Below are positions 4,949 through 62,937 of a DNA stretch of 64,000 nt, one piece after another; position 1 is the stretch's first letter; each line of letters begins with the position of its first letter. Origin of the DNA: Planctomycetota bacterium (lineage in GTDB: Bacteria; Planctomycetota; MHYJ01; JACQXL01); contig JACRIK010000003.1 in the NCBI GenBank assembly GCA_016235865.1, forward strand, positions 434,001-498,000, in the 5' to 3' direction. The notes beneath the pieces are model-generated. The model saw only the letters and a program-made list of their open reading frames with translations. It was not told where the DNA came from and made no database searches. The position numbers and the translations under genes are program-made.

Positions 4949-6147
4949 TCCTCAATCACCACCTTGGCGCCCTGGGAAATCAGGTCGTAAACCTCTTCCA
5001 CTTCTGTATTGTACATCCGGATGCAACCGTTGGATATCTTCTTTCCGATATTTTCCGGCGCAGTTGTGCCGTGGATGCCCAAGGCCGGGCTTTCCTTGAA
5101 CCCCATCCATCTGGTGCCCAGAACATTGCGGCTGTCGCCGTAAGGAACCTCCTCTTTGCGCCCATCCTCGGTCTTTTTATACCAAGTCGGATGAATCGTC
5201 TTGGTACCGACAGTGTATATCCCGGCCGGCGTGTCGCAATTCTTGGTCGGGTCGCCTACGCTTATCCGGTATTCCTTTATAAAATCGTTATTGATATAAA
5301 GCGTCAGGGTTAGGGTGGTTTTGCTGACCTTGGCCCATATCGGCCCGGTCAGAATCTTTAGTTTGTCATTGGGAAAGATATTGTGGGTTTTAAGGCCGTT
5401 AATCCGCCTGATATGCCCCAGGGCAATTTCTCCGCTGCCCGTCTCAACCTTATATTGCTTACTGATATTGGTAAGGTTATCGCCCGGCTTTACCGTGTAA
5501 ACCGTGCTGTCCGGCGTGGGGAACGGGGAAAACACCAACTTTTTATTCAGTTCGCTCAGCCGGTTTCTAATCTCCGATGTCTTTTCCTTGGTGATATTGC
5601 TTTTCAAGGCCAGCGAATAGGCGTTCCGCGCTTTGTATTCCCGGTTCGGCTCGTCAGCCAGCGAAAGATAATAATCGCCCAGTTCTACACCGGCCTCGCG
5701 GGCGCCCTGGCTGTCCGGAAATTTGGTCTGTGCCATTTCCAGATACTTGAGTTTCTCCGACTTATTCTTGCTGCGTTTACCGATTTGATAATAAGCGTCG
5801 CCGCAATAAACGCTGGCCGGATGTTCCTTAATCAATCTTTCCCAGATTTTCAGCGCCTTATCGGTCTTTTCCAGTTTCTCATAAGACCAGCCGATATAAT
5901 CAAGATACTTGTCAGCTCCGGACGGATTTTCAGTTATCTCGTCCTCAAGCCGATTAATGGCGTCCTTGTATTTCCCCTGTTCGTAAAGAGTAATCCCGCC
6001 GGTCTTCGGCTGGACCGGCTCCTGCGGCTGGGTTGCCTGCGGCCCGGTCACCGGTGGCGGGGCGGTCTGCTGACGCGGTTTCCAAACCTTGGCATAAAGC
6101 AGGTAGGCGGCGACAACCAGGATAACGAAAAATATAAACTTCTTCAT
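4945..6147 (-). CDS. LysM/TPR L,D-transpeptidase (YkuD family)
   Basis: 400 residues. A signal anchor (residues 4-18) is followed by a Pro/Gln-rich linker, TPR-like helices (about 50-200), a LysM peptidoglycan-binding domain (about 216-266, YTVKPGDNL) and a YkuD catalytic domain (about 271-398). The active-site signature HGTTAPENIG...SNGCIRM gives His359 and Cys375. It should form 3-3 peptidoglycan cross-links or attach proteins to the wall outside the membrane, which implies this organism makes peptidoglycan. GAAAGGAAAG precedes the ATG. It is the upstream partner of aroDE. Confidence 0.92.
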   Translation of the reverse strand: MKKFIFFVILVVAAYLLYAKVWKPRQQTAPPPVTGPQATQPQEPVQPKTGGITLYEQGKYKDAINRLEDEITENPSGADKYLDYIGWSYEKLEKTDKALKIWERLIKEHPASVYCGDAYYQIGKRSKNKSEKLKYLEMAQTKFPDSQGAREAGVELGDYYLSLADEPNREYKARNAYSLALKSNITKEKTSEIRNRLSELNKKLVFSPFPTPDSTVYTVKPGDNLTNISKQYKVETGSGEIALGHIRRINGLKTHNIFPNDKLKILTGPIWAKVSKTTLTLTLYINNDFIKEYRISVGDPTKNCDTPAGIYTVGTKTIHPTWYKKTEDGRKEEVPYGDSRNVLGTRWMGFKESPALGIHGTTAPENIGKKISNGCIRMYNTEVEEVYDLISQGAKVVIEE

Positions 6148-6235: not shown

Positions 6236-6952
6236 CTATTTGTCCGGCGGTTTTTCCGGAGAGGAAATATTTGGGGTGGGCGATGTCTTTTCCGCCTTGG
6301 AAAGCAGTCGCTTGGTCATTTCTTTGGCAAACAGCAAAATGGTCACAAAGAATATTAAAAAAGCCAGAAAGACTATTATCCGTTTTCCTAAAGTTGGCTC
6401 TTCATCTATAGCCTCATCTGCCGTGGTGGTCTTTGATAGCTGAGAACCTTTGGGAGTTCCGGAAGCCGCAGGTGCCGGCTTCCCGGCGCCCGGCGCTGCT
6501 TTACCTTCCGCTTTCGTGGATGCCACCTCCTGAATAGCCCTCTGAAGCGCATTGCTGGACAATTTGGCCGGCTCGGCTGTGATGGTCTTGTCATCCGATG
6601 CCATTTTCAGCGTCTCTGACTGACCGGCTGGTTGAGCCGGCGCCGGAGCAGATTCCGCTGCCATCTCGCTGTAAGTCAGGGTGGTCCGGCCGATGACAAT
6701 CCGGTCCTTGTCGATTAGCTTGCGCCGCGAGACCTTTTCGCCATTGACGATAATGCCGTTGCGGCTACCCATATCAACCAGCATGAAGGAACCATCCGGC
6801 TCCCGGGTGACTTTGGCGTGCTGCCTTGAGGCGCGCGGGTCGTCGATGAAGATGCTGTTGGCCTTTTCCCGGCCGATAATCCCCTCGGCGCCCAGGGTTA
6901 CCGTCCGCTCGCCGGCGCTTTGTCCTTCGGTTACGATAATTAAACAAGGCAT
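6236..6952 (-). CDS. FHA-domain protein with C-terminal membrane anchor
   Basis: 238 residues. An FHA domain (about 22-95) shows GREKAN, RASRQHA and GSRNGI, the residues that read phosphothreonine. A long Ala/Pro-rich linker follows, then one membrane helix (about 198-216), placing the FHA domain in the cytoplasm. The likely role is to recruit proteins phosphorylated by Ser/Thr kinases. Upstream on the minus strand, TTGACT (6981-6986) and TATTTA (6958-6963) are 17 bp apart. The -10 is 5 nt from the ATG and there is no Shine-Dalgarno, so it may be leaderless, though the -10 is weak. Confidence 0.87.
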   Translation of the reverse strand: MPCLIIVTEGQSAGERTVTLGAEGIIGREKANSIFIDDPRASRQHAKVTREPDGSFMLVDMGSRNGIIVNGEKVSRRKLIDKDRIVIGRTTLTYSEMAAESAPAPAQPAGQSETLKMASDDKTITAEPAKLSSNALQRAIQEVASTKAEGKAAPGAGKPAPAASGTPKGSQLSKTTTADEAIDEEPTLGKRIIVFLAFLIFFVTILLFAKEMTKRLLSKAEKTSPTPNISSPEKPPDK

Positions 6953-14251: not shown

Positions 14252-15007
14252 TAATCATACCGCGGGGACACACACCAGCTAAACGCAAGGATAGAAAATA
14301 CAGTATGCAGTATACAGGATAAAGCAATACCCCCTCACCCCGCAGCAGGATACCTAAACTATCCCTTAGTGGAGCCCCTCCCCTACCCCCTAAAACCGAT
14401 ATTTTACCCCTAAAATAGGGGGGGGGATACCCCCCCCCAGGTATCCCACCCTTACCCCCCGGTTATCCCTTCCCCCCCCCCTACTACATATCCCCCAGTA
14501 GGGTATTACATATCCCATAGAGGGGTATTGCATATCCCGTAGAGGAGTATTACACTAGTAATTGCAGGGTATTACACTACGGATTGAGGGGTAATTGATA
14601 TCCCTCTTGAACGACAGGTTATCCCTAATGGGATAGATATCCGTAAATTTCTCCTTGACATAAGGGCGGGGTGCTGGATTGTGTCGCATAGAGCGTATAG
14701 TAAAAATGCGGAGTTCGTAAACTCAAAGTGCGAGTAAAAATCCCCCTCACCCGGCCCTCTCCCTCAAGGGGAGAGGGTTAGGGGGCAGGTATTCTTTGTG
14801 CCTTAGTGTCTTTTGAGCGCCATAAGCCCAGTGGGTCGGCACAATCGTCAACACCCACTAAGCGCACCGGGTACATGTTACGTTTAATCCGTATGTGGTC
14901 GGCCATATAACCTAACGTAAAGACGGAAGAACCAAGGAACGTAAGGACGAAGTACACAAATTACGTAGATGAACGCTGATGATTCTTTGTGTCTTAGTGG
15001 CGAAAGA
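14252..15007. other. Gene-free repeat zone
   Basis: No credible gene or RNA gene seen. It contains the 22-bp array 2 (14329-14614), a CCCTCTCCC...GGGAGAGGG hairpin (about 14755-14777), and two direct copies of ATTCTTTGTGYCTTAGTG (about 14790 and 14980). It also holds a GGAAGAACC/ACGTAAGGACG-type repeat (about 14926-14953) similar to one inside the Ser/Thr kinase gene at 50.05 kb. Confidence 0.7.
14329..14614. repeat. 22-bp-phased degenerate tandem array 2 with G/C runs
   Basis: Exact 22-bp steps are seen at 14417, 14439, 14461, 14483, 14505, 14527, 14549, 14571 and 14593. Central units begin ACTACATATCCC, ATTACATATCCC, ATTGCATATCCC or ATTACACTA and end in GGGT. The unit at 14417-14438 is a complete palindrome: A, nine G, ATA, nine C. 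Left of it (14329-14416) the phase is plausible but the sequence is C-rich and less clear. The DNA could form G-quadruplex or cruciform structures. Confidence 0.8.
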
Positions 15008-16276
15008 TTATTTCTTGTATTTTCCGACGCACAGGGTGGCATTATGCCCGCCGAAGCCGAAGGAGTTGGACAGGGCCGCGTTGACCTCCATCTTGCGCGA
15101 CTGGTTGGGCACGTAGTCCAGGTCACAGTCCGGGTCCGGGGTCTCGTAATTGATGGTCGGATGGACGATGTTGTCCCGGATGCTCAGGACCACGGCCAGG
15201 AGTTCCACCGCGCCGGAGCCACCCAATAAATGGCCTAACATTGATTTGGTGGAGCTGATGGCCAGTTTCCGGGCGTGCGCGCCGAATAACTTCTTTATCG
15301 CCTTGGTCTCAGTCAGGTCGTTGTAAGCGGTCGAGGTGCCGTGGGCGTTGATATATGAAACCTGTTCGGGTTTGAGCCCGGCATCGTCCAAAGCCAGTTT
15401 CATGGTCATCATGGCGCCGTCGCCCTCGGGGTCAGGGGCGGTGATGTGATAGCCGTCGTCGTTCATGCCGAAGCCGAGCATCTCGGCGTGGATTCTGGCG
15501 CCGCGGGCTTGGGCGTGCTCCAGGGTTTCGAATATGAATACTCCGGACCCTTCACCCATGACGAATCCGTCCCGGTTCTTGTCAAAGGGCCGGGATGCTT
15601 TTTCCGGGACGTCGTTGCGGGTGGAGAGCGCTTTTAATGATGCGAATCCGGCCATGCCCAGGCCGGTAATGGCCGCCTCAGAGCCGCCGGTGATAATCAT
15701 GTCAGCCAGTCCCATCTGGATAATCTTGAAGGCCACGCCGATGGCGTGGTTGGACGAGGCGCAGGCGCTGGCCACGGAGAAATTCGGGCCCTTGAGACCG
15801 TAGTGGATGGCCACCTGGCCGGACGCGGAATTCATCATGACCTTAGGGATGGTAAAGGGCGAGACCCGGGACGGCCCCTTTTGGATTAGCCTGGTCTGCT
15901 GTTCCCCGAACTCGACAAATCCACCCACCCCGGAGCCGATGATGCAGCCGACCCGGTGCGGGTTTTCCCTGGTAAAATCGACGCCCGCGTCCTTGACGGC
16001 CTGGATGGCCGCCACCAGTCCGAACTGGGCGAACCGGTCCAGGCGCTTGGCCTGGGGCACCGGGAAATAATTGTCCGTATTGAAATTCTTGACCTCGCAG
16101 GCGAAGTTGACGTCAAAGCCGGTGGTGTCAAAGGCCGTAATCTTGGCCGCGCCGCTTTTGCCGGCCAGCAGCGCCTGCCAGGTCTCCTCGGCCGTATGGC
16201 CCAGCGAAGTCACCCCGCCCAGGCCGGTGATAACAACCCTTTGCTTAGATTCGCTCCGCTCAATACAAGTTTGCAT
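15008..16276 (-). CDS. fabF: 3-oxoacyl-[ACP] synthase II
   Basis: 422 residues. The condensing enzyme of fatty-acid elongation: the catalytic Cys lies in SVASACASSNHAIG, and the two His residues in NAHGTSTAYND and SMLGHLLGGSG. The ATG at 16276 is chosen because GGAG lies 6 nt upstream; a GTG at 16303 opens a longer frame but has no such site. The first residues (MQTCIERSESKQ) come from a GAGCGGAGCGAAT-type dispersed repeat, so the conserved protein begins at about residue 11. acpP lies just upstream on the same strand. Confidence 0.94.
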   Translation of the reverse strand: MQTCIERSESKQRVVITGLGGVTSLGHTAEETWQALLAGKSGAAKITAFDTTGFDVNFACEVKNFNTDNYFPVPQAKRLDRFAQFGLVAAIQAVKDAGVDFTRENPHRVGCIIGSGVGGFVEFGEQQTRLIQKGPSRVSPFTIPKVMMNSASGQVAIHYGLKGPNFSVASACASSNHAIGVAFKIIQMGLADMIITGGSEAAITGLGMAGFASLKALSTRNDVPEKASRPFDKNRDGFVMGEGSGVFIFETLEHAQARGARIHAEMLGFGMNDDGYHITAPDPEGDGAMMTMKLALDDAGLKPEQVSYINAHGTSTAYNDLTETKAIKKLFGAHARKLAISSTKSMLGHLLGGSGAVELLAVVLSIRDNIVHPTINYETPDPDCDLDYVPNQSRKMEVNAALSNSFGFGGHNATLCVGKYKK

Positions 16277-16315
16277 TTTACTCCACCCCGTTACAAATCG
16301 CACTAAAACAGATAA

Positions 16316-16350
16316 GGGGTATTCCCCGCTGTAACGCCGGAGAATACCCC
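16316..16350 (-). terminator. Hairpin between acpP and fabF
   Basis: GGGGTATTC (16316-16324) pairs with GAATACCCC (16342-16350), with a further short inner pairing. It follows the acpP stop by 9 nt and precedes fabF, so it may set the ratio of the very abundant ACP to FabF by partial termination. The downstream T-run is weak. Confidence 0.55.
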
Positions 16351-16359
16351 TATATAATT

Positions 16360-16614
16360 TTATACCTTGGTAGCCAGGGCGCCTTCGATGTATTTTACCG
16401 CGTCGCCCACGGTCTGGATTTTCTCCGCCTCTTCATCCGGGATGGACAGGCCGAACGATTCTTCCATTTCCATAATCAGTTCCACCTGGTCCAGGGAATC
16501 GGCGCCTAAATCGTTGACGAATGACGTTCCGATCGAAACCTTTTCCTTGGCCACGCCCAACTGCTTGCAGATAATCTCCGTTACCTTGTCTTGTATTTCC
16601 TGCTTTGTTGGCAT
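16360..16614 (-). CDS. acpP: Acyl carrier protein
   Basis: 84 residues, acidic and helical. Ser40 in GADSLD is the 4'-phosphopantetheine attachment site, followed by the usual [19 protein letters not shown] helix. It carries growing acyl chains in type II fatty-acid synthesis, consistent with fabF downstream. GGAGGAGAGAAG precedes the ATG. An inverted-repeat element fills the upstream gap. Confidence 0.96.
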
Positions 16615-16697
16615 CTTCTCTCCTCCTTTTTCAGTTACAATAAGTAGATTCGCCTTGGCTCACTATAAACCGTTAATAACTGGTTTTTACGGGTCAA

Positions 16698-16820
16698 CCC
16701 CGTTAGAGATAGGCCATCCCTTCGGGATGGCCGTGTATTACGTATTTTTCTTATAATACAAGTTGTCGCCTGATTTTGTCGTATAATTCCGATTACTAAT
16801 AGCAATCATCTCTAACGGGG
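16698..16820. repeat. CCCCG-type inverted-repeat element 1
   Basis: CCCCGTTAGAGAT (16698-16710) and ATCTCTAACGGGG (16808-16820) are perfect 13-bp inverted arms about 97 bp apart. Inside lies a perfect hairpin, GGCCATCCC TTC GGGATGGCC (about 16712-16732). It fills the gap between the biotin carrier gene and acpP. Confidence 0.75.
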
Positions 16821-16864
16821 TCAAGGTTTTTGGCAAATTTTATATAAAAACGGGGTTGGCTTGA

Positions 16865-17077
16865 TTATTCAATGACCATCAGGACGGTTTCGGTATCTAC
16901 GACCTGGCCTTCTTTTACCTTTACTTCCTTGACCGTGCCAGCGGCGGGCGCGGGCATATCCATTTCCATCTTCATGGCTTCAAAGACGAGGAGGGACTGG
17001 TTTTCGGCCACCTGGGCGCCGACGGCCACGTTGATTTTCACGATCTTACCGCCGATCGGGGGTCTGACATCTGCCAT
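16865..17077 (-). CDS. Stand-alone biotin/lipoyl carrier protein
   Basis: 70 residues, a single biotinyl domain and nothing else. EAMKME places the biotinylated Lys at residue 36. A Gly-rich hammerhead (GTVKEVKVKEGQVV) completes the fold. It resembles carrier subunits of biotin-dependent decarboxylases and carboxylases more than AccB, which has a long N-terminal extension. The partner carboxylase is not in the window, so acetyl-CoA carboxylase cannot be separated from other biotin enzymes. It is flanked on both sides by inverted-repeat elements. Confidence 0.88.
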   Translation of the reverse strand: MADVRPPIGGKIVKINVAVGAQVAENQSLLVFEAMKMEMDMPAPAAGTVKEVKVKEGQVVDTETVLMVIE

Positions 17078-17105
17078 ATTCTGTTTACTCCTTATCCCGC
17101 CCTTG

Positions 17106-17185
17106 CCCCGTTAGAGGCGAACACAACCAAACAAATACCCTTATGCCTGACTTTAACGCCTCGCTAGCGAACGCTTCTAACGGGG
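17106..17185. repeat. CCCCG-type inverted-repeat element 2
   Basis: CCCCGTTAGAGGCG (17106-17119) pairs with CGCTTCTAACGGGG (17172-17185) at 13 of 14 positions. It shares the CCCCGTTAGA arm with elements 1 and, with one change, 5. It lies just upstream of the biotin carrier gene. Confidence 0.7.
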
Positions 17186-17292
17186 TTTGCAGGATGATTG
17201 ATTAACTGTATCTTAATAAGGTATCCCGGGCAAGTATTTTCGGTATTTATTTCCAAGCCGGGGATTCTATTTTTTACCGGCCATCAGGTCAA

Positions 17293-17387
17293 CCCCGCAC
17301 ATAACAGACAGGACACCCCAAAATCCTGCTTTTTCCGCCCTGAATGCTTTTTATTGCGTGGTTTTCTAACACTATTTATGTGCGGGG
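17293..17387. repeat. CCCCG-type inverted-repeat element 3 overlapping a gene end
   Basis: CCCCGCACATAA (17293-17304) and TTATGTGCGGGG (17376-17387) are perfect 12-bp arms. The right arm encodes the last residues (DPAHK) of the glycosyltransferase, whose stop is at 17372. The left arm is identical to that of element 4. Confidence 0.75.
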
Positions 17388-18571
17388 TCAACATATTGCT
17401 CAATAATTTTTCCCACCATATGCCGGGCGTCGAAATTGGGGAAGATGAGTTTTTGGCCGTTCGCTCCCATCTGCCGGGCCTGGTCCGGGTTTTTCAGCAG
17501 GAAGATAATGGCCTGGGCCATCTGGTCCAGGGATTCCTTGGTCTGCTTGGCCGAGACCGGGGCCGGTATCAGGAATCCGGTTTGGGAGCTGATAACCAGT
17601 TCCCGGGCGCCGTCCACGTCGAATGACACCACCGGCTTGCCCAGTGAAAACGACTGCGGAATGGTCCGGGCCAGGCCTTCCCTTAATGACGGATGGACCA
17701 GAATGTCAATGGCCTGAATCATGGAGGGAATCCGGTCCGGCGGGACCAGCCCGGTGAAGACAAACCAATCCTCCAGTCCCCGGCCATTGATCTCCCTTTT
17801 TATCCGGCCGCTTAACGACCCGTCGCCCACGAACAGGAATTTCACCTCGGGCACGGCGCGGATAATCCGGACGGCGATTTGCAGGACATATTCGTGGCCC
17901 TTGAGCGGGAACAGCCGGGCAATCGTGCCGACCACCTTATGGCGGCTTTCCAATCCCAGCCGGCGCCGAACTGTTTCCTGGGACTCCGTCACCTTGAATT
18001 TATCCAGTTCCAGGGCGCTGTAGATGGTGGTGTATTTTTCGGGCGTGCCGATACCGGCCTTGAGCGACTGGGCGGTCATGGCGTCAGCCACGCTGATGAA
18101 TTTGCTGGTCACCCAAGAAGCGGTCTTTTCCGCCAGGATGTAGAGGAAATTAACCAGCTTATTCTGGTAGGGATAAAACGACAGCCCGTGCAGGGTATGG
18201 ACGATAATCTTGACGCCGGACAGGAATGCGGCCCAGCGGCCCAGGATGCCGGCCTTGGCGCTGTGGGTATGGACGATATCGGGCTTCAGGCGGCGCATCA
18301 GGATAAGCAGTTTGATAAAGGCGATGATTTCCAGGAAGGGATTGATATTCCGGCGCAGCTCCGGGACGATAATCAGTTCCACGCCGCTGTCCTTGACCCG
18401 CTTGATAAGCTCGCCCTCCGGGCCCAGGGCCGGGCCGGAAATCAGGACCACCTTGTATTCCGGGCGGGTCTGCAGACCCTCCACGGTCAGGATGGTGTTT
18501 TCCTGCGCGCCGCCCAGAATCAGCCGGGTGATGATGTGGACCACGGTTATCGGAGCATCTTTTTTTATCAT
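17372..18571 (-). CDS. GT4-family glycosyltransferase
   Basis: 399 residues, GT-B fold. The N-terminal acceptor domain has GGAQENT and HTHSAKAGILGRWA. The C-terminal donor domain has LFPLKGHEYVL, VGDGSL and a HPSLREGLARTIPQSFSLGKPVV motif typical of GT4 retaining enzymes. It is expected to transfer a sugar from a nucleotide donor to a lipid-linked or surface glycan at the inner face of the membrane. The substrate cannot be told. It is divergent from rlmN. The last residues derive from an inverted-repeat arm. Confidence 0.9.
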   Translation of the reverse strand: MIKKDAPITVVHIITRLILGGAQENTILTVEGLQTRPEYKVVLISGPALGPEGELIKRVKDSGVELIIVPELRRNINPFLEIIAFIKLLILMRRLKPDIVHTHSAKAGILGRWAAFLSGVKIIVHTLHGLSFYPYQNKLVNFLYILAEKTASWVTSKFISVADAMTAQSLKAGIGTPEKYTTIYSALELDKFKVTESQETVRRRLGLESRHKVVGTIARLFPLKGHEYVLQIAVRIIRAVPEVKFLFVGDGSLSGRIKREINGRGLEDWFVFTGLVPPDRIPSMIQAIDILVHPSLREGLARTIPQSFSLGKPVVSFDVDGARELVISSQTGFLIPAPVSAKQTKESLDQMAQAIIFLLKNPDQARQMGANGQKLIFPNFDARHMVGKIIEQYVDPAHK

Positions 18572-18645
18572 TTACTATAACTTTATCGGTATTTTTGTAT
18601 AATAACAAGAGTAATCGCAGTCAATTATTTGAGGGTTATTCCGTT

Positions 18646-19668
18646 ATGCGTTCTATCAAACAACTGTCATTAAAGGAACTCAAGGCCTGGCTTAAGGATA
18701 ACCAGGAGCCGGCCTATCGGGCCGAACAGATATTCCACTGGCTTTATTCGGATGGTGTGCGCGGTTTTGACGGAATGACCAACCTGTCCGCGCCCTTGCG
18801 GGAAAAACTGGCCGGGCAGTTTGACATCTCGCCGCTTAAATTGAGCAACAAACTGGTGTCATTTATCGATAACACCGAGAAATACCTGCTGGAACTGCCG
18901 GACGGCCGGACCATCGAGAGCGTGGTCATGCCATACCCAAGGCGCTGCACCATCTGCATCTCTACCCAGGTGGGTTGCCGGTTCCACTGCGTCTTCTGCG
19001 CCAGCGGAAAAAAGGGACTGATTCGCAATCTGGCCGTAGACGAGATACTGGAGCAGGTTGTTCTGGGCAAGCAGGAAGACCACCAGATTACCCACATCGT
19101 GTTCATGGGCATGGGCGAGCCGCTGGATAACCTGGATAATGTCATCAAGGCCATCGGGGTGTTTAATGACCCGAACGCCTTTAATATCGGGGCCCGCCGG
19201 ATGACCATCTCGACCTGCGGAATTCCGTCCGGAATCCGGAAACTGATGAGCCTGCACCTGCAGGTGGAATTGTCGGTCTCGTTACACGCGGCCAACGATG
19301 CGCTGCGCTCCCGGCTGATGCCGATAAACAAGCAATACCCGCTGAAATCACTGATAAGGGAATTGAAGGAATATATCAAGCAGACCAACCGCCAGGTGAC
19401 CTTTGAATATATCATGATCGACAAACTTAACTCATCCGATAAGGATGCGCTGGAGCTGGCCCGGCTGCTCAAGGGGATGGAATGCAAGGTTAACCTGATT
19501 CCGTTTAACACCACCAGCGCGGCCCGGGATTTTAAGCCGCCCATCGCATCGGAAATAAAGCGGTTTCAGAAGACCTTAGCGACCGAGGGCGTAAAGAATA
19601 CCCTGCGCGATTCCCGGGGCGCGGATATCCAGGGCGCCTGCGGGCAATTGAGCTTGTCAACCAGATGA
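18646..19668 (+). CDS. rlmN: 23S rRNA/tRNA adenine-C2 methyltransferase RlmN
   Basis: 340 residues from the ATG at 18646. A longer frame from 18595 adds 17 residues without conservation; GAGGG precedes the chosen start by 11 nt. The radical-SAM motif CRFHCVFC binds the 4Fe-4S cluster. The C-terminal ACGQL holds the Cys that resolves the methyl-adduct, and the loop Cys pattern CTICISTQVG is typical. It methylates A2503 of 23S rRNA and A37 of some tRNAs. A TATAAT at 18598-18603 probably belongs to its promoter. Confidence 0.94.
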   Translation: MRSIKQLSLKELKAWLKDNQEPAYRAEQIFHWLYSDGVRGFDGMTNLSAPLREKLAGQFDISPLKLSNKLVSFIDNTEKYLLELPDGRTIESVVMPYPRRCTICISTQVGCRFHCVFCASGKKGLIRNLAVDEILEQVVLGKQEDHQITHIVFMGMGEPLDNLDNVIKAIGVFNDPNAFNIGARRMTISTCGIPSGIRKLMSLHLQVELSVSLHAANDALRSRLMPINKQYPLKSLIRELKEYIKQTNRQVTFEYIMIDKLNSSDKDALELARLLKGMECKVNLIPFNTTSAARDFKPPIASEIKRFQKTLATEGVKNTLRDSRGADIQGACGQLSLSTR

Positions 19669-19672
19669 TGAA

Positions 19673-19766
19673 CCCCGCACATAAGCTTGTGCAGTAGCAG
19701 TGGTAACGGATTTGTGACAAGCGACTATTAGAAATATTTATTGAAAGCGTAAATTTATGAGCGGGG
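19673..19766. repeat. CCCCG-type inverted-repeat element 4 containing the ruvX start
   Basis: CCCCGCACATAA (19673-19684) pairs with TTATGAGCGGGG (19755-19766) at 11 of 12 positions. The ruvX ATG at 19757 is inside the right arm, so folding of the RNA could hide it. The left arm begins 5 bp after the rlmN stop. Confidence 0.75.
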
Positions 19767-20275
19767 TAAAGATATTAGGCATCGATTACGGCAAGAAGCG
19801 CATCGGACTGGCTATCAGCGTGCCGGGCACCAGTTTCGCCGTGGGCTATAAGATTCTGGAGGTTGATCCGGCCGAACCGCCGGTTTCGGTGATAGAAAAT
19901 ATCCGGGAGATTGTCGGCAAGGAGCACATCTCAGCGCTGGTCATCGGGCTGCCCAAGCAATTTGACAATACGCTGGGCATCGCCGGCAAAGAGGTGATGC
20001 GCTTTGCCGATGAGGTTAAGAAAAATATTGCCGTTCCGGTGGTCATGTGGGATGAAAGACTGACCTCCAAGCAGGCCGAGGTGTTATTGCGGGATGTCAA
20101 CATGTCGCATAAGGACAAGCGCGAGCAGGTTAATGTCACGGCGGCCCAGGTGATGCTTCAAAGCTACCTGGACGCCCAAGCCAGCCGGGTCCCGGCCGAC
20201 GCACCCGAAGGGACCGCCCCGAAAGCATTCGGGGAACCCGAACCGAATGAAAAGGAACATGAGTCACCCCATTAG
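19757..20275 (+). CDS. ruvX: YqgF/RuvX-family putative Holliday-junction resolvase
   Basis: 172 residues. An RNase H-like fold with GIDYGKKRIGLAIS and DERLTSKQAE, the conserved acidic sites of YqgF. E. coli RuvX acts in 16S rRNA 5' maturation and resembles resolvases. The usual length is about 140; the C-terminal extension after about residue 143 (PADAPEGTAPKAFGEPEPN...) is encoded by palindromic repeats including CCCCGAAAGCATTCGGGG (20217-20234). No Shine-Dalgarno is seen; the start codon is in the right arm of inverted-repeat element 4 and the stop is in the left arm of element 5. Confidence 0.88.
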   Translation: MSGVKILGIDYGKKRIGLAISVPGTSFAVGYKILEVDPAEPPVSVIENIREIVGKEHISALVIGLPKQFDNTLGIAGKEVMRFADEVKKNIAVPVVMWDERLTSKQAEVLLRDVNMSHKDKREQVNVTAAQVMLQSYLDAQASRVPADAPEGTAPKAFGEPEPNEKEHESPH

Positions 20276-20346
20276 AAGTGACAATAGCGGAGAGAAAATG
20301 ATGGCACAAAGATTTAAACCTGATATTACGGACACTTCTAACGGGG
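20267..20346. repeat. CCCCG-type inverted-repeat element 5 across ruvX stop and next start
   Basis: CCCCATTAGAAGTG (20267-20280) pairs with CACTTCTAACGGGG (20333-20346) at 13 of 14 positions. The ruvX stop (20273-20275) is in the left arm. The methyltransferase start (20298) is in the loop, and the right arm encodes part of its N-terminus. Confidence 0.72.
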
Positions 20347-21029
20347 TAAACGATTACCAGCAGGTAAAAAAGAGTTATCAATCAGCTGATTTGGCCAACC
20401 GCTACGATAAAAAGCGGTTCAAGGAATCGGCCCGCAAGCAATTGCTCAACCGCCAGCTGATGACCGCCCTGACCGGCGTGTTAAATTACGCCGGAACAAA
20501 CGGCTGCCGGATTGATTCGGTGCTGGACATGCCCTGCGGGACCGGCCGGGCGTTTTCCACGCTGCTGAATAAGGGCATCAGGTTTATCGGGGCGGATATC
20601 TCCCTGGAAATGATGCTCCAATCGCGGTCTATCCCGGACGCCAAGGATGCGCCGCTGGTCCAGTGCGACGGAGCCCGGATGCCGTTCAAGAACGGTAGTT
20701 TCGACGCCATCGCTTCCCTGCGTTTCCTAACCACGTTTATTCCGCAGGAGGCGCGGGCGCCGATTTTCCGGGAGATGAGCCGGGTCAGCCGGGGCTGGGT
20801 CATAATCGAGTGCCGGCACGAAAATATCCTGAGCATTGTGGGCGAATGGATATTCCAAAACATCCTGCGCCGGCCGCCCAGGTTCAATTATTTCTCGCGG
20901 GACGCCATCAAACAGGAGCTGGAACAAGCCGGGATAAAACTAGAAAAGGTTTACTGCCCTTACGGCTTGTCCTCAAACAAATGGCTGCTGCTCGGGCGGG
21001 TGATGCCCGGCTGCTGTAATAAAACATGA
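20298..21029 (+). CDS. Class I SAM-dependent methyltransferase
   Basis: 243 residues. Motif I VLDMPCGTGRAF binds SAM, followed by FIGADISLEMM and DGARMPFKNGSFD, as in type-11 methyltransferases. The substrate is unknown. The ATG at 20298 is used because GGAG lies 6 nt upstream; a start at 20247 would overlap ruvX by 29 bp. Residues about 12-17 are encoded by an inverted-repeat arm. The last codon overlaps the next gene (ATGA), so a membrane or envelope substrate is plausible from context, but this is inference. Confidence 0.85.
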   Translation: MMAQRFKPDITDTSNGVNDYQQVKKSYQSADLANRYDKKRFKESARKQLLNRQLMTALTGVLNYAGTNGCRIDSVLDMPCGTGRAFSTLLNKGIRFIGADISLEMMLQSRSIPDAKDAPLVQCDGARMPFKNGSFDAIASLRFLTTFIPQEARAPIFREMSRVSRGWVIIECRHENILSIVGEWIFQNILRRPPRFNYFSRDAIKQELEQAGIKLEKVYCPYGLSSNKWLLLGRVMPGCCNKT

Positions 21030-23068
21030 ACGCCTTTAGCAATAAGATAAAATGGCGCCACGTGTTTATAAATAACGCCCTGCCCAAACAGTTCAAGATA
21101 AGCGCCATAGCCATCTTCGGCCTGTTAGTCTGCTACGCCCTGCTGCGCCTGGGGTTTTTCCTGGCCAATCGCGGGTTCTTTGTTGATGTCAGCGCCGGTG
21201 AAATTCTGTGGTCTTTTATCTACGGCCTGCGGTTTGACATCTCGGCTCTGCTGATGATTAACGGCGCGCTGTTATTATTGTATAACTTCCCGGGCAACCC
21301 GGCGGCGCGCTGGCCCTGGTTCAGATTGGGATTGCTTCTGCTTTTCTGGCTGGCCAATCTGGTATTTATCGGGCTTAACCTGTCCGATTACATCTATTTT
21401 CCGACCATCCAGCGCCGGCTGATGTCAGAAATCTACACCATCCTGCCGGACATTCTGCGCATGCTGCCTTCGACGCTCCTGGAATACTATTATATGGTCC
21501 TGTTGCTGCTGGCCGGCGGCGCCGGATTTGTATTCGCGAGTTTGTGGTTATTCCGAAAGGCGGATAAGTTATTTGCCTACAGCCCCAATATCTTAAAGGA
21601 AAGCGCCTGGCTGGTTGTGATAATATTGCTGCTGATGCTGGGAATCCGGGGCGGCCTGCAATCCCGGCCCATCCGCCCGGCCCACGCATTTTTTTCGGCC
21701 AACCGCAGCACCGGATACCTGACCCTGAATTCCTCTTTCACCATCTTAAGAAGCCTGACCCAGACCAACCTGCCCAGTTACAAACTCATGCCCGCAGACG
21801 AGGCGCTGAAGACCGTGCAGGCCATGCTCAAGGCCGATAACGAGCAGATACTCGACCCGCAATATCCGTTCCTGAGACAGCGGTCATCGGCCGGCCACCC
21901 CGGGAAACCCAATGTAGTGGTGTTTATTTTGGAGAGTTGGACAGCCGATTATTGCCAGAGCGTTTCCGGACAGTCAACAGCCATGCCGTTCTTCGACAGC
22001 CTGACTGACCAGGGCATGCTCTTCACCAATTTCCTGGCCAACGGCCAGCGTTCGATTATCGCCCAGACGTCAATCCTGACGTCCATTCCGGGGTTTTTCT
22101 CGACCAATCTGCGCGGGTCTAAAAAGGTCATGATCGGCTCGCAATCCGAGATGAACCGGTTTCTGGGTTTGGGAACCATTCTGATGAAAGAAGGCTACGC
22201 CACCTCGTTCCATCACGGAGCCAAGACCGGCTCGATGGGTTTTGACGCCTATTCCAGGCTGGCCGGATTTTCCAATTATTACGGCAAGGAGGATTACCCA
22301 AACCTGACCGCCAGCGCCACGGACGGCACCTGGGGCGTCTGGGATGAGGAATTTTTCCTGGATTCCCTGCGCCGGATGGACGGATTCAAAGAGCCGTTCT
22401 GTTCGGTGGTGTTCTCGCTGACCTCGCACGACCCGTTCCCGATTCCGGAGCGCCGGCAATCCCTGTTCAGCCAATATTCCAATGAAACCAAATTCCAGCG
22501 GGTGCTCCGCTATACCGATTATTCGCTCCAGCAATTCTTTAACGCGGCCCAAAATAAACCCTGGTTCAAGAATACGATATTTATCATCACCGGCGACCAC
22601 ACCAATTATTCCCGGCCCAATATCCTGCGTTCGTATTATCACGTCCCGCTCCTGATTTACGCGCCCGGTATTATCAAGCCCCAACGCTGTAACCAGATTG
22701 GCTCGCAGGTGGATATTCTGCCCACCATCCTGGACCTGTTGTCGATTCCCACCGTCCACGCCTCAATGGGCCGCTCGCTCCTGGACACAACCAAGACCCA
22801 TTATGCCGTGATGACCGAAGGCGCGTATTGCGTTATATTTGACGACTGCTTTGTCCTGCTGGACGACCTGGAAAAGACCACCGGGCTGTTTGATTATCAC
22901 GCCGACCCTTATCTTAAGGATAACCTGCTGACCCGGGATCCGGAAACGGCCCGGAAATTAAAGCATCATCTCTACGCCTATATCCAGGAGGTGACCTACG
23001 CCATAACCAATGATAAGGTCTGCCGGGACGAGGATATTAAAATCAATAAGCCGGAAGGAACCAAATGA
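21026..23068 (+). CDS. LtaS-like membrane sulfatase/phosphotransferase
   Basis: 680 residues. About five N-terminal membrane helices (residues about 15-200) precede an extracytoplasmic alkaline-phosphatase-fold domain (about 290-640). Metal-site motifs are ILESWTADYC, a nucleophile region NGQRSIIAQTS and FIITGDHTNYS, the layout of lipoteichoic-acid synthase and related enzymes. It probably moves a phospho-alcohol or sulfate group on an envelope glycan. True LTA is unlikely in a diderm, so the substrate is open. It overlaps both neighbours by 4 bp (ATGA), in a tight operon with the methyltransferase and the phosphoesterase. Confidence 0.87.
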   Translation: MNAFSNKIKWRHVFINNALPKQFKISAIAIFGLLVCYALLRLGFFLANRGFFVDVSAGEILWSFIYGLRFDISALLMINGALLLLYNFPGNPAARWPWFRLGLLLLFWLANLVFIGLNLSDYIYFPTIQRRLMSEIYTILPDILRMLPSTLLEYYYMVLLLLAGGAGFVFASLWLFRKADKLFAYSPNILKESAWLVVIILLLMLGIRGGLQSRPIRPAHAFFSANRSTGYLTLNSSFTILRSLTQTNLPSYKLMPADEALKTVQAMLKADNEQILDPQYPFLRQRSSAGHPGKPNVVVFILESWTADYCQSVSGQSTAMPFFDSLTDQGMLFTNFLANGQRSIIAQTSILTSIPGFFSTNLRGSKKVMIGSQSEMNRFLGLGTILMKEGYATSFHHGAKTGSMGFDAYSRLAGFSNYYGKEDYPNLTASATDGTWGVWDEEFFLDSLRRMDGFKEPFCSVVFSLTSHDPFPIPERRQSLFSQYSNETKFQRVLRYTDYSLQQFFNAAQNKPWFKNTIFIITGDHTNYSRPNILRSYYHVPLLIYAPGIIKPQRCNQIGSQVDILPTILDLLSIPTVHASMGRSLLDTTKTHYAVMTEGAYCVIFDDCFVLLDDLEKTTGLFDYHADPYLKDNLLTRDPETARKLKHHLYAYIQEVTYAITNDKVCRDEDIKINKPEGTK

Positions 23069-62890: not shown

Positions 62891-62937
62891 ACCCCCACAC
62901 CAATGTATTTCTCACATTAAGGCATTGGTGTGGGGGT
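62891..62937 (-). terminator. 15-bp stem whose loop contains the lipid-kinase stop codon
   Basis: ACCCCCACACCAATG (62891-62905) and CATTGGTGTGGGGGT (62923-62937) are perfect inverted arms with a 17-nt loop. The TAA of the lipid kinase gene (62917-62919) is in the loop, and one arm encodes the last residues (TPTPM). There is no T-run, so it may protect the 3' end rather than terminate. Confidence 0.7.

Follow-up and report, generated by a model that had tools for sequence, protein, structure and literature searches.

What are the five short inverted-repeat elements that occupy successive gene junctions at positions 16,698 to 20,346 of a 64,000-nt stretch of Planctomycetota DNA (contig JACRIK010000003.1, positions 434,001 to 498,000; the whole stretch is called the window here)? 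The first-pass annotation had offered two answers, mobile palindromic elements or long-range RNA hairpins that control the coupling between genes. The former is supported by copies throughout the genome and across phyla, by 4-bp target-site duplications (TSDs) and by empty sites in relatives. With high probability the elements are non-autonomous mobile elements, similar to miniature inverted-repeat transposable elements (MITEs), which carry terminal inverted repeats (TIRs) and are mobilised in trans. The element is a short unit, mostly 60-130 bp long, whose inverted ends of about 13 bp consist of CCCCGTTAGA and three variable, mutually complementary bases; a second family has the ends CCCCGCACATAA. 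It enters a TNNA target as a unit, duplicating 4 bp, is often found at stop or start codons and mostly keeps the frame when inside genes.

Target-site duplication and empty sites

Identical 4-bp repeats flank 80 of the 148 elements with both flanks, compared to a mean of 10.0 and a maximum of 18 for re-paired flanks. No excess of direct repeats is seen at 2, 3 or 6 bp, and 5-bp repeats are present in 5 elements. The target consensus is TNNA, with T in first position in 146 of 164 strand readings.

Insertion can be followed in the lipoyl-synthase gene lipA of a Phycisphaerae genome (G068, locus L141), in which a 62-bp element lies between TTCA and TTCA. In the DNA alignment, 8 relatives possess a single target copy without the element, which demonstrates insertion with a 4-bp TSD, and the blastn pairs of 7 relatives break with an overlap of exactly 4 bases. 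On the protein level, LipA was matched in 57 of 60 genomes searched, most matches being interrupted at residues 127/149, where the inserted peptide begins and ends. A sister genome (G098) carries the element at the same place with 12 differences in 62 bp. Between these two orthologues the arms have changed at 1 of 26 positions, the change restoring a pair, and the interior at 11 of 36; the flanks in G098 now read TTTA/TGAA instead of TTCA/TTCA.

The five elements of the window

All five inverted pairs proposed by the first-pass annotation were confirmed. Within the window, CCCC..GGGG pairs that are 60-130 bp long and have at least 11 paired positions occur at exactly these five places, compared to 0.075 on average and at most 2 in 200 dinucleotide-preserving shuffles. 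The arms are of the type CCCC(G/A)TTAGA in elements 1, 2 and 5 and CCCCGCACATAA in elements 3 and 4. The neighbourhood comprises fabF, acpP, a biotinyl-domain open reading frame (ORF), a glycosyltransferase, rlmN, ruvX, a methyltransferase and a sulfatase:

16698..16820, element 1: 123 bp, long type, TIR CCCCGTTAGAGAT, at the border of acpP and the biotinyl-domain ORF; arms 13/13 paired
16712..16732, internal hairpin of element 1: predicted fold of 9 bp with a 3-nt loop, one base inside the left arm
17106..17185, element 2: 80 bp, short type, 5' of the biotinyl-domain ORF; arms 13/14 paired
17293..17387, element 3: 95 bp, CACATAA type; arms 12/12 paired
17372..18571, minus strand, glycosyltransferase ORF: Pfam Glycos_transf_1; C-terminus ..DPAHK and stop from element 3
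18643..19668, plus strand, rlmN: Pfam RlmN_N and Radical_SAM; stop codon 19666-19668 adjoins the target repeat of element 4
19673..19766, element 4: 94 bp, CACATAA type, at the rlmN/ruvX border; arms 11/12 paired
19757..20275, plus strand, ruvX: Pfam RuvX; start codon in element 4, stop codon in element 5
20247..21029, plus strand, methyltransferase ORF: Pfam Methyltransf_25; open through element 5
20267..20346, element 5: 80 bp, short type with CCCCA left arm, at the ruvX/methyltransferase border; arms 13/14 paired

The 4-bp direct repeats that flank these elements are a feature the first-pass annotation lacked. Perfect TCAA duplications border element 1 (16694-16697 and 16821-16824) and element 3 (17289-17292 and 17388-17391). 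The flanks of element 2 (CTTG/TTTG) and element 4 (TGAA/TAAA) are identical in 3 of 4 bases, and those of element 5 (GTCA/TAAA) retain no TSD.

Several of the elements had also been said to cover start or stop codons, and elements 3, 4 and 5 indeed supply ends and starts of the glycosyltransferase, ruvX and methyltransferase ORFs. Element 3 encodes the final codons of the glycosyltransferase ORF and its stop, which lies 13 nt into the element; the ATG of ruvX lies inside the right arm of element 4, and the left arm of element 5 provides the TAG that ends ruvX. Element 5 is open over its whole length and forms the N-terminus of the methyltransferase ORF (HPIR...TSNGV).

Element 4 was not found at the corresponding place in the 5 relatives read (L271-L275; 5 of 7 rlmN loci), so the use of this junction is not conserved. 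In two of these relatives other palindromic repeats follow rlmN, GTCATTGCGAGG...CTCGCAATGAC in L271 (1203-1330) and GTCATTCTGAG...GAATCTC in L273 (2540-2628), which we take to be possible further cross-phylum repeat families. Elsewhere in the window, at 62893-62935, the two 13-bp halves of a perfect inverted pair CCCCACACCAATG enclose a loop of 17 nt; this pair is shorter than the element family and perhaps represents a terminator or another repeat.

Copies in the genome and across bacteria

The genome-wide search suggested by the first-pass annotation revealed further copies. The own genome of the window (2.67 Mb, 38 contigs) contains exact pairs of CCCCGTTAGA, spaced by 40-70 bp, in 16 places and exact pairs of CCCCGCACAT in 12, with 0 matches for the reversed patterns in either case, and a single-arm list added further pairs of about 100-160 bp. 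The stretches of this genome that were examined contain at least 47 elements, namely 18 short (about 80 bp), 16 long (102-158 bp) and 13 of the CACATAA type (80-100 bp). Perfect 4-bp direct repeats flank 25 of the 47 (5/18 short, 9/16 long and 11/13 CACATAA), with TCAA/TTGA targets preferred by the long and CACATAA types. By eye, most long copies show a hairpin beside one arm like that of element 1, the subterminal hairpin of the long type. Interior sequence is shared by 3 pairs only among these 47 elements, over 18-25 nt; in the set of 152 elements used below, 48 have some interior match among the sequences compared, several of them being the same locus twice. When 400 kb of the own contig were searched for TIRs of any kind combined with 4-bp repeats, 2 matches came up, one of them a known element, compared to 0-3 in offset controls; other end types were therefore not uncovered in this way.

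Among 59 genomes (own and relatives), the 40-70-bp-spaced CCCCGTTAGA pair is present in 6, all of the same order (reversed-pattern control 0). A scan with one genome per species yielded at least 117 stretches with CCCCGTTAGA-type elements. Judged by record titles, which mostly denote metagenome bins, the type occurs in at least 12 named bacterial groups. Among the matches listed these are Patescibacteria, Planctomycetes including Phycisphaerae and Brocadiaceae, Omnitrophota, Deltaproteobacteria, Nitrospirae, Nitrospinota, Cloacimonadota, KSB1, Elusimicrobia, Stahlbacteria/WOR-3, Ratteibacteria and Bacteroidetes; 2 viral contigs carry one element each.

Several loci deserve separate mention. 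One Stahlbacteria genome (G060, L178-L197) has many near-identical 64-bp copies, the palindrome of which reaches about 10 bp past the usual end (GCCCRATTTA...TGAATYGGGC) and includes a compensated A-T/G-C change. At L001 (1427-1611) one element is nested inside another of the same family. In an Omnitrophota ribosomal-protein operon (L059, 4798-4857) an element is located right after the rplV stop, before rpsC.

Insertion into coding sequence

Translation can pass through both arms, CCC GTT AGA giving PVR and TCT AAC GGG GT giving SNGV. Based on open reading runs rather than curated genes, 28 elements have 60 or more open codons to either side; 20 of them are in frame, and the length is 2 mod 3 in 21 of 28 (p 8e-6). 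Elements with fewer than 30 open codons (n = 75) show no such bias (26/75, p 0.81). Since this length plus the 4 duplicated bases is a multiple of 3, the host protein gains an in-frame peptide xPVR...SNGV. The host proteins, named from their sequence, include SecA, a dihydroorotate dehydrogenase, HypD, HypE, glycyl-tRNA synthetase (GlyRS), CarB and LipA. The PDB matches of GlyRS and HypD split exactly at the element, residues 205 and 229 of the former joining chain positions 239 and 237 and residues 185 and 215 of the latter joining 189 and 191. In locus L068, two pseudopilin-like ORFs carry an element each (5845-5909 and 6383-6447) at their prepilin-peptidase site; the right end is translated as LTG ahead of FTLVE, by which the glycine before the cut is re-created.

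Fold and covariation

Element lengths range from 59 to 123 bp in the 152-element set and reach 158 bp among own-genome copies. The search pattern fixes 10 bp per end, and the conservation of those 10 bp thus reflects row selection. Arm positions 11, 12 and 13, though variable, are complementary in 145, 134 and 121 of the 152 elements, and background is reached from position 14. The first-pass annotation had regarded the joint change of both arms between the two arm types as covariation. The two types are real, but they represent two TIR families rather than covariation within one RNA; covariation is located at arm positions 11-13 and, for one size class, in the internal hairpins.

The window elements fold more stably than their shuffles, with z values of -2.4 to -7.1 (-7.05 for element 1), much of this difference being due to the arms alone. 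Interiors have next to no sequence in common, and many in the 62-74-bp class form two hairpins; fold z values below -2 were obtained for 15 of 29 elements of 65-68 bp and for 8 of 60 elements of 77-82 bp. An alignment of 26 rows from two genomes, consisting of 8 of the 9 G073 and 18 of the 25 G002 elements, these 26 being picked for two visible hairpins, and including 3 rows visibly misaligned in the hairpins, gives a T-shaped structure with 95.1% of cells paired versus 78.9% in shuffles. It contains 99 double changes, compared to 26.7 in shuffles, and 8 one-sided cells. The covariation score is 0.395, compared to 0.102 in shuffles and 0.106 in the best slid control, and RNAalifold arrives unaided at nearly the same T-shaped fold. 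This covariation may stem from selection that acts on a folded strand, or else from the correction of palindromes by template switching.

What moves the elements

A fixed 4-bp duplication indicates a staggered cut of the DDE type. An enzyme acting in trans would move the element by such a staggered 4-bp cut, and we consider a DDE-type transposase to be the most likely, and indeed a probable, candidate. Each jump would renew the target repeat, with the ends under selection and the interior drifting. Intact ends, renewed target repeats and unrelated interiors fit cut-and-paste, and the chances that movement is mainly of this kind, the target repeat being renewed while the interior drifts, appear to us about evenly balanced. 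With slightly less confidence, we suggest that the fold of the ends, which in the short class takes a T shape with two inner hairpins, may be recognised or needed. The positions at gene junctions would mostly mirror tolerance, as ends that hold a stop or in-frame sense codons would let genes survive.

Reading the whole-genome lists of G000, G060, G064 and G065 for exact 10-bp ends gave no autonomous copy. End pairs spaced at 300-6000 bp with matching repeats occur at L059, L090, L068 and L118. As autonomous partners with the same ends the first three were rejected, the interiors holding ribosomal-protein genes (L059), ABC-transporter genes (L090) and two small elements (L068). A 1,044-bp pair at L188 was likewise rejected; it has no matching repeats and holds metabolic ORFs and further elements. 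IS1380 was considered as a necessary mobiliser. Insertion sequences of the IS1380/piggyBac type have ends that start with CC(C) and a 4-bp TTAA-like duplication, as do the elements described here. They differ in that the PF13701 gene is absent from 5 of 6 element-bearing genomes of the order (G000, G003, G005, G006 and G007), and IS1380 was dismissed in this role.

Several observations weigh against the proposed trans-mobilised, fold-dependent element. A perfect TSD is missing in 68 of the 148 elements. The flanks of 24 of these 68 are one base off (9.5 expected), an excess that fits TSD decay, and those of 22 match at no more than one base. With exact 10-bp ends, no transposase-carrying copy was found in the loci examined, and the enzyme class is deduced from the 4-bp duplication alone. 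Near-identical copies, of which there are 5 in one Jorgensenbacteria genome and which account for most of about 20 places examined in one Stahlbacteria genome, imply that replicative spread happens. To these points are added the selection of rows for the T-shaped alignment and the fact that template-switch repair of palindromes could yield covariation without fold recognition.

Alternative explanations

The last point leads to the alternative that survives best, a possibility to be taken seriously even if we rate it as doubtful: the elements move as described, but template switching during replication keeps arms and hairpins paired by palindrome correction, with no reader of the fold. Pair changes are mostly double with few G-T intermediates, as the 8 one-sided cells versus 99 double changes show; the flanks of the lipA orthologue have changed towards complementarity, and the Stahlbacteria palindromes extend 10 bp past the TIR. 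However, palindromic extension of the flanks is not a general rule, since non-TSD flanks are complementary in 4 cases versus 5.0 expected. Correction also leaves the existence of two hairpins of set size unexplained, and it sits poorly with lipA arms that have changed far less than the interior.

It is improbable that a RAYT/IS200-type HUH (Y1) transposase, acting on a folded single strand, uses the elements as REP-like substrates. According to the excerpts available of PMC3733652, RAYTs serve non-autonomous palindromes in trans. The folded interiors covary, and Y1_Tnp (PF01797) was found in 13 of 13 element-bearing genomes searched, some of them below 1 Mb, as well as in the own genome. Within the phylum, however, it occurs in 6 of 6 element-positive and in 29 of 53 element-negative genomes (Fisher p 0.07). 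A RAYT flanked by the elements as their partner was rejected, as arm-like sequence is present in 7 of 32 RAYT loci (one place counted twice) and never as a flanking pair. The two RAYTs of the own genome have other ends, GGGGACAGACC; their genes (L169, 1389-2160 and L170, 156-930) are located between long inverted ends GGGGACAGACCACATATTTT..., partial copies of which lie downstream at L170, so that these RAYT units constitute a separate mobile unit. To our knowledge, a fixed 4-bp target duplication is unexpected of Y1 enzymes, which also counts against them. Taken together, the link of Y1/RAYT to the elements is weak.

Fixed RNA elements, i.e. long-range hairpins of operon mRNA that control coupling, stability or termination with mobility being unimportant, are very unlikely. 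What stood of this part of the first-pass annotation is that the window elements outfold their shuffles, and the covariation of arms and inner hairpins and the positions at gene junctions are in line with it. Against it stand the contribution of the arms to the fold, the target duplications and empty sites, insertion within single-gene frames (GlyRS, HypD and LipA) and the unconserved rlmN-ruvX junction. Moreover, Rfam gave 0 matches, both for positions 14500-22500 of the window up to E 1 and for 8 loci at gathering scores. As a by-product, some RNA control is conceivable.

An origin by chance, or as an artefact of assembly or binning, can practically be discarded: most records are metagenome bins and some labels may be wrong, but the five observed pairs far exceed the shuffle expectation, the reversed-pattern controls gave 0 in every pair search, and orthologous empty and filled sites lie in aligned genes.

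Relation to known elements

Returning to elements mobilised in trans, small inverted-repeat elements that tolerate or enter coding frames are an already known kind. Like bacterial MITEs such as ERIC, RUP and Correia/NEMIS, the elements are short and geneless, have TIRs and a target duplication and reside between and within genes. They differ from them in that the interior of MITEs is common within a genome, whereas here only the ends are common, the target is a 4-bp TNNA and no parent insertion sequence was found; ERIC, RUP and Correia/NEMIS-like MITEs duplicate TA. A closer resemblance in insertion habit is offered by the palindromic elements of Rickettsia (RPE) and Wolbachia, which are short, have TIRs of about 12 bp and lie in frame in conserved protein genes as well as between genes, as far as the excerpts of PMC2229807 and PMC10969869 go. 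The same excerpts give 105-146 bp for the Rickettsia elements, and the target duplication is tabulated as '?' in that of PMC2229807. RPEs have been described from a single bacterial order, whereas the present elements extend over at least 12 named groups, with a 4-bp TSD, empty sites and unrelated interiors. REPs of the GTAG and CGTC super-families are likewise folded palindromes mobilised in trans, sometimes in many phyla, and their RAYTs are flanked by repeats or long TIRs (PMC3733652, in the part available). REPs, in contrast, are hairpins of 20-40 bp in which a tetranucleotide at one end stays unpaired, compared to 60-130 bp, symmetrical ends and a 4-bp duplication here. The TCTAAC/GTTAGA ends also brought integron attC sites into consideration as a possible comparison.

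In the open-access literature (5.39 million papers) the exact strings CCCCGTTAGA, TCTAACGGGG and NPVRN matched only works with titles on other subjects, and combined terms listed nothing that describes the element family; absence from print is not established by these searches, which left subscription journals uncovered. New with respect to the searchable literature are the ends common to many groups, the free interiors, the folded short class and the lack of a parent transposon.

Significance

As a speculative and, taken as a whole, rather unlikely extension of these results, the elements may form an old family of trans-mobilised, folded mini-transposons, shared by at least a dozen bacterial groups of anoxic water and groundwater. 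An undescribed, host-borne transposase would read the 10-bp end and the fold, i.e. the pairing within the arms and, for short-class elements, a T-shaped three-way junction, rather than the interior sequence. The elements would thereby act as couriers that supply essential proteins with new random in-frame peptides xPVR...SNGV and gene borders with new start and stop codons. The results pose the question of which enzyme moves DNA with constraints on the fold of its interior but not on the sequence. For the annotation of such genomes, the elements explain a recurring peptide pattern in their proteins and warn annotators about N-termini and extra loops. In-frame mobile palindromes, described for Rickettsia and Wolbachia in the papers cited above, now extend to many uncultured bacterial groups, with the target-site duplication proven.

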